Source: Mycolicibacterium sp. MU0053
Lineage (GTDB): Bacteria > Actinomycetota > Actinomycetes > Mycobacteriales > Mycobacteriaceae
Reading direction: 5' to 3'
NCBI RefSeq assembly: GCF_963378095.1
Contig: NZ_OY726397.1
Location: forward strand, 2,852,001 to 2,916,000
Length of the DNA: 64,000 bases
Part shown: positions 19,379 through 37,433 of the stretch, in pieces
How positions within the stretch are numbered: the first letter of the stretch is position 1
How the letters are laid out: each line of letters begins with the position of its first letter
Notes under the pieces: generated by a model
Database searches by the model: none
The model's input: the letters and a program-made list of their open reading frames with translations, nothing else
Told to the model about the DNA's origin: nothing
Position numbers and translations under genes: made by a program

Positions 19379-21121
19379 TCAGGCGTCCAACCGGGCGAAC
19401 TGGCCGTGCCGATACTGCTCGACACAGCTGGCGCGGCGGACCTTTCCGCTGGTGGTGATCGGGATAGCGCCCGGGCCCACCATCACCAGATCCGCGACCT
19501 TGAGGCCGTGCACGGTCGATATCGCGGAGGTGAGTTCGCGTTTGAGGTCGGCCAGCCTCAGCATCGCCGCCTCCTCGGTATCGCCGCGCTTCTTGTGCTC
19601 GACGATGACCACGAGATGTTCGGTGCGGTCATCGGGAACCGAGATCGCCGCGGCCCTGCCCCGGCTGATCTCCTGCACCGTCGCTTCGATGTCGTCCGGC
19701 GAATGGTTGCGGCCGTACACGATCAACAAATCCTTGATCCGGCCCATGATGAACAGCTCGCCCTCGGAGAAGAAACCCAGATCGCCGGTGCGCAGCCATG
19801 GCCCCGCCGGGGTCTCGGCACTCGGGTTGACGATCGTGGCGCCGAACGTCTCCCGGGTCTCGTCGGGCTTCTGCCAGTAACCGAGCGCGACGTTGTCGCC
19901 ACGCACCCAAATCTCCCCGGTGCGACCGTCGGCGCATTCGACGGCGGTGTCCGGGTCCACCACGCGCACCACCGGTGAATCGGTTCGGCCGTAGCTCACC
20001 AGCGGTGATCCGCTGCCTGCCCCGCAACGTTGGGCGTGGCCGGCCGACAGCTTCTCGGCGTCGAACTCGACGACCGCGAGCGGATCGAGGGACGCCCGGG
20101 TCGCCACGTAGACGACGGCCTCGGCCAACCCGTAGGACGGCCGGATCTTGTTCTCCCGCAGCCCGAACGCCGCAAAGCGTTCCGCGAACCGCCGGACCGT
20201 CGCGGCATGCACGCGTTCGGCGCCGCTGAGCAGGTTCATGACATTGCTCAGATCGAGGCCCGCCATGTCGTCGTCGGTGGTGCGCCCGGCGGCGAGTTCG
20301 TAGGCGAAGTTGGGGCCGGCCGACAATGCCCGCGGATGGCTGGCCACCAACTGCATCCAGCGCGCGGGCCGCTGCAGGAACGCCATCGGACTGGTCACGA
20401 CGGTGTGCACGCCACCGAGAATGGGCACACACATGCCCAGCATCAGACCCATGTCGTGATAGAACGGCAGCCAGGACACGAACGTGGTGTCCGGCGGGGC
20501 CACGCCGCCGTGCTCGGAGAAGAAGGCCCCCATCATCTGTTTGAAGTTCGCCGCGAGATTGGCGTGCGATATCTCCACGCCGGCCGGGCGCCGGGTCGAT
20601 CCCGAGGTGTATTGCAGGTAGGCGAGTTCCTGCGGCGCGACGCGCCGACCGGACCGGCGCCGACTGTCCAGGTCAAGCAGGTCCACTTCGATGACGGTCG
20701 GGGCCGGTTGACCGTCGCGTGCCATCGCGTAACCGGCCGCTCCCTCGCGCACGGCCGAGGTGGTCAGGACGACGCTGGGTTCGGTGTCGACCACGACCGC
20801 GGCCGTGCGTTCGTCATGGGCACCACCGCCGGGCGCCGGCGCCGGCAGCGGCACCGCGATGAGCCCCGCCTGCAGCGCCGCGACGAAAGCCACGATGTAA
20901 TCCAGGCTTTGGGGGGCGAGAATGACCGCGCGGTCGCCCGGTTCGGCATGCTCGGCCAACTCCTGCGAGAGGTTCAGTGTGCGCCGGTAGAGCTGTGCCC
21001 ACGTCAGCGTGATCGGGACACCGTCCCAATCCTGCTCGTAGTCCATGAAGGTGAACGCGATGTCGTTGGGCTGCAGGCTCGCCCGCTCGCGCAGCACCGC
21101 AGGAAGTGACGCCTGGATCAT
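19379..21121 (-). CDS. fadD23: Long-chain fatty-acyl-AMP ligase, FadD23-like
   Basis: 580-aa adenylate-forming enzyme activating long-chain fatty acids as acyl-AMP for loading onto a polyketide synthase. ATP-binding core YTSGSTRRPAGVEISH near residue 175, FVSWLPFYHDMGL typical of FAALs, LRTGDLGFF, and the hinge region GRIKDLLIVYGRNHSPDDIE. The C-terminal Lys is in ITTSGKVRR. Length and motifs fit the FAAL group containing FadD23, not CoA ligases. It lies 9 bases after the papA2-like stop, so the two form an operon. Likely starter-unit supplier for the PKS ending at 31152. FadD21, FadD24 or FadD25 are close relatives, so the number is tentative. Confidence 0.87.
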   Translation of the reverse strand: MIQASLPAVLRERASLQPNDIAFTFMDYEQDWDGVPITLTWAQLYRRTLNLSQELAEHAEPGDRAVILAPQSLDYIVAFVAALQAGLIAVPLPAPAPGGGAHDERTAAVVVDTEPSVVLTTSAVREGAAGYAMARDGQPAPTVIEVDLLDLDSRRRSGRRVAPQELAYLQYTSGSTRRPAGVEISHANLAANFKQMMGAFFSEHGGVAPPDTTFVSWLPFYHDMGLMLGMCVPILGGVHTVVTSPMAFLQRPARWMQLVASHPRALSAGPNFAYELAAGRTTDDDMAGLDLSNVMNLLSGAERVHAATVRRFAERFAAFGLRENKIRPSYGLAEAVVYVATRASLDPLAVVEFDAEKLSAGHAQRCGAGSGSPLVSYGRTDSPVVRVVDPDTAVECADGRTGEIWVRGDNVALGYWQKPDETRETFGATIVNPSAETPAGPWLRTGDLGFFSEGELFIMGRIKDLLIVYGRNHSPDDIEATVQEISRGRAAAISVPDDRTEHLVVIVEHKKRGDTEEAAMLRLADLKRELTSAISTVHGLKVADLVMVGPGAIPITTSGKVRRASCVEQYRHGQFARLDA

Positions 21122-21130
21122 GGTTCCCTC

Positions 21131-37100: not shown

Positions 37101-37433
37101 CGGGTTGATCCCGCCGTGCTCGACGGCCTCCCATGCCGTCTCCAGCAGCAACCGATGCTGCGGATCGATCGCGACCGCCTCGCGTTCGCTGATGCCGAAG
37201 AACTCCGCGTCGAATCCCCCCACATCGTCGAGGAACGCCCCGTACTTCGACACCGAGCGGCCCGCGACACCCGGTTCGGGGTCGTAGTACTCCTCGGGAT
37301 CCCAGCGATCGGTGGGAATTTCGATTACCAGGTCGTCTCCACGCAGCAGCGCCGACCAGAGTTCGTCAGGTGAGTTGATTCCGCCGGGCAACCGACATGC
37401 CATCCCGATGACGGCAACTGGCGTTTTATCCAC
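31152..37433 (-). CDS. pks2: Mas/Pks2-type iterative polyketide synthase
   Basis: 2093-aa type I PKS with one full reducing module. KS: Cys175 in DTACSSG, then EAHGTGTPVGDP and NFGHTQSAAG. AT: Ser near 617 in GHSMGEVAAA, with VASHS in the specificity motif as in methylmalonyl-using Mas-type enzymes. DH: His near 921 in HQVHNVAVLPG. ER: HSGTGGVGQAA near 1554. KR: TGGLGGLG near 1760. ACP: Ser near 2045 in GLDSLGNLEL. There is no thioesterase, as expected when PapA proteins take the product. Such enzymes build multi-methyl-branched fatty acids from FadD-loaded starters. GTG start. First gene of pks-papA1-mmpL. Pks5-type or TPP-type identity is the alternative to Pks2. Confidence 0.92.
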   Translation of the reverse strand: MDKTPVAVIGMACRLPGGINSPDELWSALLRGDDLVIEIPTDRWDPEEYYDPEPGVAGRSVSKYGAFLDDVGGFDAEFFGISEREAVAIDPQHRLLLETAWEAVEHGGINPAAVAGTPTGVFMGVTHNDYAYLAADTGSLEGPYGFTGTSFSLASGRVAYALGAHGPALTVDTACSSGLTAIHLACRSLLEGESDMALAGGVSVLLEPRKAASGSAAGMLSPTGRCRAFDVAADGFVSAEGAVVVLLKRLPDALRDGDRVLAVVRGVASNQDGRTVNIATPSTDAQIGVYQAALRSAGVDAATVGMVEAHGTGTPVGDPLEYASVAAVYGTDGPCALASLKTNFGHTQSAAGALGFVKAVLAVKHGVVPQNLHFTALPDEMATIDTKLFVPQEITPWPLNGGGPRRAAVSSYGLSGTNVHAIVEQPPVPAPEASPEVGNDGDALLFPLSASSAEELARTSERLAQWLTECSEDLDIADVAYTLARRRGHRSVRTTLVAHSTAELLDGLRAIATGAVPPLPVVGQDDRGPVWVFSGQGSQWAAMGAGLLATEPQFAATVAELEPLIAGESGFSVTAALTAPDTVTGIDRIQPTVFAVQVALAAAMRARGVVPGAVIGHSMGEVAAAVVAGALSLQDGVRVICRRSKLMATISGAGAMASVELPAAQVLSELAARGVTDVSLAVVASPESTVVGGDVDSIRELVAAWAAREVMAREIAVDVASHSSYVDPILDELTEQLADITPLTPTVPYYSATSYDPRDVPELDSWYWADNLRHTVRFAAAVQAALEDGYRVFAELSPHPLLTHAVEQTARSVDVPLAMFAAMRREQDQPHGLLALVGDVHSAGAAVDFAVLHPAGRLVDVPLPTWTHQPLLLNRDSLEGPVRGSCSMEIHPLLGSHVVLPEEPERHVWYGEVGTEAQPWLAEHQVHNVAVLPGAAYCEMALAAAQTVLGADAEVRDIAFEEMLLLDEQTSVGAAATVAAPGVVDFAVETFEGGERTTRATATLTIGESGSAPIHHDLTALLTQHPHRVEGADLRSAFDQVGVHHGAAFAGLAAAYIADPEDVSAAAQTVIAEVALPGPLRSQQGGYGVHPALLDACFQAVLAHPAAQRVAAGGLLLPLGVRRLHASGAARHGRYCLVHLVDVDADGVAADLQILDDDGTVVLSALGVRLGTGMSAEGRAHRMLNDRLLGVDWATRELPAAPGAQGGAWLLVSAGNPENPLPAGLSAALTAAGAECLVLDWPVGTDPGGARAALTARLGDRGCTGVVVMAPNGPVPEEHSADRGEQCVRHVVHIAQALVEIDDDLPRLYVVTKSGQTVLAEDTPNLAHAGLRGLVRVLAMEYPHSRATQIDLDDATGIELVAQQLLSGSEEDETAWRAGRWYTARLTPAPLRAEERHTVAVDNQHGGMRLQVRNPGDLESLELVAFDRVAPGPGQIEVAITTSSINFADVLVAFGQCPSFEGRLPELGTDFAGVVTAVGPGVGTHQVGDRVAGVSGNGCWATFVTCDADLAVPLPDGLSGEQAAAVATAAATAWYGLHDLAKITAGDKVLIHSGTGGVGQAAIAIAQAAGATIYATAGSEQRRQLLRDWGIENVYDSRSVSFAEAIRRDTDGYGVDIVLNSVTGALQRAGLELLAFNGRFVEIGKRDIYGDTRVGLFPFRRNLTFYGVDLALMSVTHPAVMRDLLAKVFALTAEGYLPMPRSTHYPLADAATAIRAMGGAQHTGKLLLDIPRGGQLQAVVEPAQVPVFRADGAYVITGGLGGLGLFLAEKMSEAGCGRIVLTSRSQPNPKAQETIEFIRATGGDIAVECGDIADPTTAARVVAAATATGLPLRGVLHAAAVVEDATLSNITDDLLTRDWKPKTEGAWNLHIATESQPLDWFCVFSSAAALVGSPGQGAYAAANSWVDAFVRWRRARGLPATAIAWGAWSEIGRGTAMADGDASIAPDEGAYAFAEILRYNRDYSGYAPIMGAPWLTAFAQRTPFAELFKAAGRGGSEQSKLRAELNSLPREEWPTHLRRVISEQVSVLLRRAVDPDRPLPEYGLDSLGNLELRTRIEAETGVRISSMAITTIRGLADHLCEKLAPQEAEPATP

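Follow-up and report, generated by a model that had tools for sequence, protein, structure and literature searches.

A sulfolipid-type gene cluster with an internal stf0 gene in Mycolicibacterium sp. MU0053, predicted to make a sulfated acyltrehalose

We analysed a window of 64,000 nucleotides from Mycolicibacterium sp. MU0053 (G000:C1:2852001-2916000 of a 5,453,374-base single-contig genome), whose two 16S rRNA genes fit a rapid grower. At positions 19379-37433, eight genes lie side by side with all eight frames open: fadD(-), papA2(-), stf0(-), sap(+), chp1(+), mmpL(-), papA1(-) and pks(-), from left to right. An earlier reading made from the sequence alone had taken them for a sulfolipid-type biosynthetic locus; all eight genes are indeed present and uninterrupted, with families assigned by domain matches and motifs intact. 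The features of the locus are as follows.

19379-21121, minus strand: fadD, AMP-binding domain (PF00501, 199 bits); predicted fatty acyl-AMP ligase of the FadD21/23/28 group and predicted loader of the Pks
21131-22549, minus strand: papA2, Condensation family; predicted to carry out the first acylation of trehalose-2-sulfate
22550-23548: non-coding gap between papA2 and stf0, 1.0 kb, GC content 63%
23549-24430, minus strand: stf0, Sulphotransf domain (PF09037, 315 bits, cut-off 22); putative in-locus trehalose sulfotransferase paralogue
24642-25361, plus strand: sap, SfLAP domain (PF11139, 169 bits, cut-off 35); putative membrane protein of the sulfolipid-1-addressing type
25486-26565, plus strand: chp1, PE-PPE domain (201 bits); predicted acyltransferase for the final transesterification
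26581-29619, minus strand: mmpL, MMPL domain (574 bits); putative exporter of the MmpL8 clade
29678-31105, minus strand: papA1, Condensation family; predicted to carry out the second (polyketide) acylation
31152-37433, minus strand: pks, 2093 amino acids (aa), MAS-type with domains KS-AT-DH-ER-KR-ACP; predicted maker of a methyl-branched chain

The distribution of this gene set was followed with PapA2 and Chp1 of the window as queries, among listed genomes none of which is recognisable as M. tuberculosis. PapA2, sought in 396 Mycobacterium genomes, gave 354 matches at E 1e-120 or better; above 620 bits, a threshold of our own for the sulfolipid (SL) type, lay 21 genomes including this one, and the next best match scored 593 bits. 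Chp1, sought in 248 genomes, gave 206 matches at E 1e-20 or better, 16 of them (this genome included) above 320 bits. In five of the 21 genomes with SL-type PapA2, stf0 lies inside the locus, each time between papA2 and sap: this genome, M. wolinskyi (G246), M. sp. URHD0025 (G128), M. hubeiense (G013) and G041 (hereafter the in-locus genomes). The full set of eight gene kinds stands together in M. wolinskyi, M. sp. URHD0025 and M. hubeiense, and is also present in G041, where it is split over two contigs and includes a divergent Pap, in an assembly that is 89% complete with 5% contamination. Because the same kinds stand together in further genomes, the eight-gene set is not a product of chance. 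For the other 16 SL-type genomes, stf0 was not found in the stretch of the locus that was read; the order papA2-sap-chp1-mmpL-papA1, with no stf0, is seen in 14 of these loci, and contig ends truncate the remaining two. No full-length pks was found beside papA1 in any of the 14 loci read, the gene being shortened in M. helveticum and G230 and giving no match in the stretch read of the other 12. These species do have MAS-type Pks at other places in the genome, with at least one match in 25 of 25 genomes searched.

To place the Pap and MmpL proteins, we used trees that included TPP-type (trehalose polyphleate), single-Pap and other unnamed Pap and MmpL proteins, and that were without any protein named for lipooligosaccharide (LOS), e.g. 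PapA4 or MmpL12. In the 42-sequence Pap tree, PapA1 grouped with SL-type PapA1 (support 100/99), and forcing PapA1 of the in-locus genomes together with that of single-Pap loci was rejected (approximately unbiased test, p-AU 0.003). PapA2 grouped with the M. tuberculosis-like P0063 and slow-grower PapA2 (100/99), whereas the Pap of the genome's own TPP-type locus was placed elsewhere; PapA2 is 61.7% identical to P0063 versus 45.2% to that TPP-type Pap. Against the solved M. tuberculosis PapA2 structure 6aef, PapA2 scored 638 bits and PapA1 499 bits, and in a comparison by eye nearly every aligned residue of P0063 was identical to 6aef. Both Paps keep the HxxxD motif (SIAHLHIDPM in PapA2, SIDHLHVDG in PapA1).

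For MmpL, an unrooted tree left the root open, since the in-locus group and the single-Pap loci also formed one side of a branch (100/100), and outgroups were therefore added. In the tree rooted on other MmpL, the window MmpL grouped with P0166 and slow-grower MmpL8 (96/99); as P0166 has 1089 residues, presumably the length of MmpL8, and 3544 member sequences, we take it for the M. tuberculosis protein. The window MmpL is 61.7% identical to P0166 versus 56.3% to the MmpL of the genome's own TPP-type locus. Chp1 grouped with SL-type loci (Shimodaira-Hasegawa-like approximate likelihood ratio test, SH-aLRT, 99), scored 186 against the NCBIfam 'acyltransferase PE' model, far below its cut-off of 580, and retains GLSQG with Ser118 together with conserved Asp and His motifs. 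On sequence evidence, these results indicate that PapA1, PapA2, MmpL and Chp1 are of SL-type descent.

Trees siding PapA and MmpL with TPP or LOS proteins would have spoken against the sequence-only reading; both grouped with SL-type proteins instead. That a LOS-type or TPP locus has been misread here as a sulfolipid locus is very improbable: the Pap and MmpL trees, together with gene content, speak against it. Several of the nearest Pks relatives are labelled 'polyketide synthase 5', and the cluster lies in a slot between lipL and an ileS-type gene, presumably the site of the LOS region in M. tuberculosis; however, no glycosyltransferase Pfam match was found among the ten slot genes scanned, and the genome has a separate TPP-type locus (L144, G000:C1:4517126-4535771) with a 3688-aa Pks frame, so called from its gene content and from a Pks length that we take to be typical of TPP loci.

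The steps by which M. tuberculosis makes sulfolipid-1 (SL-1), taken by Stf0, PapA2, FadD and Pks, PapA1, Chp1 and MmpL8 with Sap, are established, and from that pathway we infer every catalytic step and the product of the locus described here. Stf0 would convert trehalose to trehalose-2-sulfate, to which PapA2 would add the first fatty acyl group. The methyl-branched acyl chain that PapA1 would likely attach would come from FadD and Pks; Chp1 would move acyl groups from one molecule to another, and export of the product would fall to MmpL together with Sap. The roles of Chp1, MmpL8 and Sap in M. tuberculosis are described in passages of PMC4183827. We consider it likely that the eight genes form a sulfolipid-type cluster, predicted to make and export a sulfated, methyl-branched acyltrehalose, so that production of a sulfated polyacyltrehalose by this strain is a prediction of the analysis. 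The sulfolipid-type reading given earlier is supported.

In the Pks, the KS Cys, AT GHSMGE and VASH, DH His, KR Tyr and ACP Ser are all in place; VASH is similar to the xASH form, which we take to be associated with a methylmalonyl extender. The Pks2 equivalog NF041183 matched it at 3518 bits (cut-off 2400), but another Pks of the same genome reached 3674, and in 14 of 14 Mycobacterium genomes tried one or more Pks lay above the model's cut-off, Pks of single-Pap loci among them. The Pks2 label from this unspecific model was discarded as evidence, and because of the 14 of 14 passes database labels of sulfolipid synthase are unreliable. In the Pks tree, the window Pks formed a clade with those of M. 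wolinskyi and URHD0025 and with P0242 and P0243; the sister group held P0255 (Mycolicibacterium), P0252 (a metagenome-derived Mycobacterium) and the Pks of M. rutilum and M. goodii. Four frames scanned around one sister-lineage Pks (L164, of L163-L168) gave no Pfam match, and these frames may be wrong. A second MAS-type Pks of the genome, with a divergent fadD neighbour, lies at G000:C1:495355-501621 (L154); its AT motif is VAFH rather than VASH, as in similar loci of M. wolinskyi, URHD0025 and G021.

FadD scored 745 bits against the full-length FadD23 in PDB; against truncated chains, FadD28 (615 bits) came before FadD23 (581 bits). The NCBIfam models gave 890 bits for FadD21 and 887 for FadD28, both below the cut-off of 1100. 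By descent, FadD clusters with the fadD products of the M. wolinskyi, URHD0025 and G041 loci (SH-aLRT 98), apart from that of M. hubeiense.

Both of the shortened Pks that adjoin papA1, in M. helveticum (L055:17825-21070) and in G230 (L037:246-2744), have been reduced by in-frame internal losses, with no internal stop; by match positions, KS-AT-DH-ACP remain in M. helveticum and KS-AT-ACP in G230. These two slow growers show that such loci erode, and the window cluster might by the same token be a silent or decaying remnant. With eight open frames, intact motifs and a ratio of nonsynonymous to synonymous substitutions (dN/dS) well below 1, however, we hold this to be the least credible of the explanations considered.

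The in-locus Stf0 scored 421 bits against the NCBIfam equivalog NF047724 (cut-off 400) and 430 bits against the M. smegmatis-type Stf0 structure 1tex. A second Stf0 of this genome is encoded at G000:C1:1839676-1840455. When the Stf0 model was searched in 25 genomes, two full copies were found in all five in-locus genomes; the 16 other SL-type genomes had a single Stf0 in 13 cases, two full copies in one (M. bohemicum), a full copy plus a fragment in one, and two partial matches on different contigs in one. Among the remaining four genomes, G014 and G021 each had one Stf0, G016 none and G075 a fragment with a stop. The M. bohemicum copies lie at G097:C1:1688118-1688900 and 110176-110958, neither of them inside its SL-type locus, which is on C2. 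The fragment in G075, a genome with a single-Pap locus, is at G075:C1:2690523-2690711.

In the Stf0 tree, four of the five in-locus copies formed a clade (96/96), and the M. hubeiense copy fell with distant copies (88/93). Forcing all five into one clade was not rejected (p-AU 0.49); their monophyly was dropped, the M. hubeiense copy being with the distant copies in the best tree. Four pairs of in-locus stf0 gave a dN/dS of 0.06-0.13, and the pair with M. hubeiense gave 0.23; these are rough values, as synonymous differences are large. By these values, in-locus stf0 is kept by purifying selection. Its product is probably a dedicated paralogue.

Several points weigh against a sulfolipid-type cluster. 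The trees were built without the M. tuberculosis Pks2, PapA1, Chp1, Sap and Stf0 sequences themselves, and it is the length of P0166 and the size of its cluster, rather than any name given by a source, that identify it as MmpL8. MmpL is 63.8% identical to the MmpL of the single-Pap locus in G021, slightly above its identity to P0166, and identity alone would therefore not separate SL-type from single-Pap MmpL. Sap was placed with SL-type Sap only weakly, and FadD, as judged from its scores, is not specifically FadD23. The Pks did not group with the shortened Pks of M. helveticum and G230, which are the nearest stand-ins for an SL-locus Pks2 and whose rows have long branches and, in one case, an odd composition. 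Pks lineages also differ among the five in-locus loci, those of M. hubeiense and G041 being yet other lineages. Finally, a Trp that 23 of 23 distant Stf0 share (fragments left out) is replaced in the in-locus copies, by Cys in four and Ala in one, and the window Stf0 has a changed residue near a motif that we take to be acceptor-binding. Of the gene types proposed by the sequence-only reading, PapA1, PapA2, MmpL and Chp1 hold as SL-type by the trees, but Pks and FadD are not callable as Pks2 and FadD23 by descent. Because the Pks lineage apparently differs from that of the SL-locus Pks remnants, the chain structure is probably unlike the phthioceranates of SL-1; the chain maker seems to be exchangeable while the core of Pap, MmpL and Chp stays.

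The Stf0 residues bear on a further explanation, in which the in-locus enzyme has changed its acceptor to an acylated trehalose or to another disaccharide or position and the product is a sulfated glycolipid on a scaffold other than that of SL-1. The Trp of the distant Stf0 is absent from all five in-locus copies, and the second, Trp-bearing Stf0 in all five genomes could serve trehalose. The position of M. smegmatis Glu33, presumably important along with Glu36, is Gln in the window Stf0 and Lys in two other in-locus copies; it is no clean mark, however, being Glu in the other two in-locus copies and Asp in two distant ones. The Glu aligned with Glu36 is kept in 28 of 28 sequences, the window Stf0 is still above the equivalog cut-off, and any role of the Trp, Glu33 and Glu36 in binding is putative. 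A changed acceptor thus appears unlikely, if worth keeping in mind.

A product without sulfate, resembling the diacyltrehaloses and polyacyltrehaloses (DAT/PAT), with stf0 as a bystander, we regard as improbable. The same chromosomal slot holds a single-Pap cassette without stf0 in G021, and the SL-type loci of 16 genomes show none in the stretch read, as such a product would allow; against it, stf0 lies between papA2 and sap in all five in-locus loci and is under purifying selection, and the solved member of the PapA2 clade is named as a trehalose-2-sulfate acyltransferase. A sulfolipid-type cluster with a dedicated Stf0 remains our preferred interpretation.

The genes around the cluster define the slot in which it sits.

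14105-17275, minus strand: class I tRNA synthetase with DUF5915 (ileS-type); left border of the slot
18638-19372, plus strand: 244-aa membrane protein, no Pfam match; border marker outside the pathway
38013-39284, minus strand: lipL esterase (NF052353, 739 bits, cut-off 650); right border of the slot
39338-44676, minus strand: meaB-mutB-mutA, methylmalonyl-CoA mutase system adjoining the slot

The meaB-mutB-mutA genes may possibly be linked to the supply of precursors. The right border (lipL-meaB-mutB-mutA) is the same in M. wolinskyi, URHD0025 and G041, where G041 shows mutB-meaB; the M. hubeiense border differs, the genes after pks being that of the 244-aa protein and one for glycine cleavage. 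The 244-aa protein gene adjoins fadD in M. wolinskyi, URHD0025 and G041 and lies beside other Pks cassettes in G021 and G018. The slot itself holds a single-Pap cassette in G021 (L051, L153) and another Pks-Pap cassette in G018:C5 (L170). Both stand beside border genes found here too, the 244-aa membrane protein gene and lipL-meaB; the slot seems to swap trehalose-lipid-type cassettes, and because of the presumed M. tuberculosis LOS site it looks like a parking place for them. The G041 locus (L158, L044) looks like a hybrid, in which a Pks of the G021 slot lineage and the divergent Pap stand beside mmpL, stf0, papA2 and fadD of the in-locus type.

Within the cluster, fadD follows papA2 on the minus strand at a distance of 9 bases, and it is convergent with papA2 in the other four in-locus loci. 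The spacing between papA2 and stf0 is 1.0 kb here; three relatives have 1.2-1.4 kb, M. hubeiense has 0.18 kb, and no convincing blastn match to the gap was found in four related loci that would mark a conserved element. A foreign composition was considered and set aside: the GC content of the locus (67.7%) is like that of its flanks (67.4 and 68.5%), with no sign of recent import.

The M. tuberculosis stf0 gene is, as we take it, unlinked to the SL-1 locus, and the in-locus genomes invite an account of how this came about. One may tentatively picture the window as an ancestral, self-contained sulfolipid locus with a dedicated sulfotransferase, the M. tuberculosis form with unlinked Stf0 as a reduced descendant, and the in-locus Stf0 as a distinct paralogue tuned to the glycolipid of the cluster and not to free trehalose; we put this forward with considerable doubt. 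The PapA2 of M. hubeiense joins M. tuberculosis-like and slow-grower sequences (96/90 in the 42-sequence tree, SH-aLRT 84 in a smaller tree), as does its MmpL (97/95 in the rooted tree), and its locus nevertheless holds stf0, fadD and pks. We hypothesise one simple history in which an ancestral cluster with internal stf0 lost that gene on the slow-grower branch. Against it, M. hubeiense PapA1 joins the other in-locus genomes (100/97), its FadD and Pks are apart from theirs, and its Stf0 falls with distant copies in the best tree. The separate grouping of FadD and Pks weakens the case for a single ancestral complete cluster, and from the four placements together the complete set may have been assembled separately in M. 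hubeiense.

In the literature, as far as the passages available go, sulfolipids were termed exclusive to M. tuberculosis in 2014 (PMC4183827), and a sulfoglycolipid was found only in M. tuberculosis strains among the strains tested (PMC5431016). The virulence genes of M. brisbanense in the corresponding passages of PMC4816395 include mmpl8, pks2, papA1, papA2 and stf0, without a locus analysis. Passages elsewhere name single genes (mmpL8 in PMC8217490; papA2 in PMC4818103; mmpL8 and papA1 at about 50% identity in PMC8441333), describe sulfolipid genes as only partly conserved in M. spongiae (PMC11361433) and report erosion of sulfolipid genes in animal strains (PMC10871547); a search by term of PMC11237670 and PMC8356964 turned up nothing of relevance. 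Among the matches listed, whose titles, abstract beginnings and passages leave most subscription literature outside their scope, nothing described such a locus in a species other than M. tuberculosis. In databases, Pks of other mycobacteria already bear the label 'sulfolipid-1 biosynthesis phthioceranic/hydroxyphthioceranic acid synthase', and a protein from a soil metagenome is labelled 'sulfolipid-1 RND transporter MmpL8', but the model for the Pks is unspecific. The best reading is that the locus is a variant of the SL-1 locus for which no earlier account was found. A complete locus in other mycobacteria means that the pathway could be studied outside tuberculosis bacteria and that a basic role in the envelope would be separable from virulence. 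It also offers a testable origin for the M. tuberculosis sulfotransferase gene, presumed to be unlinked, and, if the prediction is true, a sulfated acyltrehalose may not serve as a marker strictly specific to one species.

The locus can be compared with the known trehalose-lipid systems. Glycosyltransferases within the cluster, a trait of LOS loci, were not found by Pfam match among the ten slot genes scanned. The TPP locus comprises pks, papA3, mmpL10, fadD23 and PE (gene list in a passage of PMC10465359). It shares with the window locus a Pks, a Pap, an MmpL, a FadD and an acyltransferase with a PE-PPE domain, but has one Pap, a much longer Pks and no stf0, whereas the window locus has two Paps and a 2093-aa Pks. 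The single-Pap loci of G014, G021 and G075 resemble the window locus in MAS-type Pks, FadD, Chp and MmpL, as presumably does the DAT/PAT locus, and the three single-Pap loci also contain Sap; these loci differ in having one Pap and no stf0, with PapA and MmpL on other branches. The loci of M. scrofulaceum, M. nebraskense, M. bohemicum, M. paraseoulense, M. colombiense and others share SL-type PapA1, PapA2, Sap, Chp1 and MmpL in the same order, but are without stf0 or fadD in the stretch read and without a full-length pks beside papA1. The window locus has the same gene kinds as the SL-1 locus of M. tuberculosis, whose layout we take to be papA2-sap-chp1-mmpL8-papA1-pks2-fadD23. The match in order claimed by the sequence-only reading stands, against this presumed layout, for papA2(-), sap(+), chp1(+), mmpL(-), papA1(-) and pks(-), and PapA2 and MmpL fall in the same clades; it does not extend to the other two genes. 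Unlike the M. tuberculosis locus, the one described here has stf0 inside, fadD at the papA2 end and a Pks apparently of another lineage, and is set between an ileS-type gene and lipL-meaB-mutBA.

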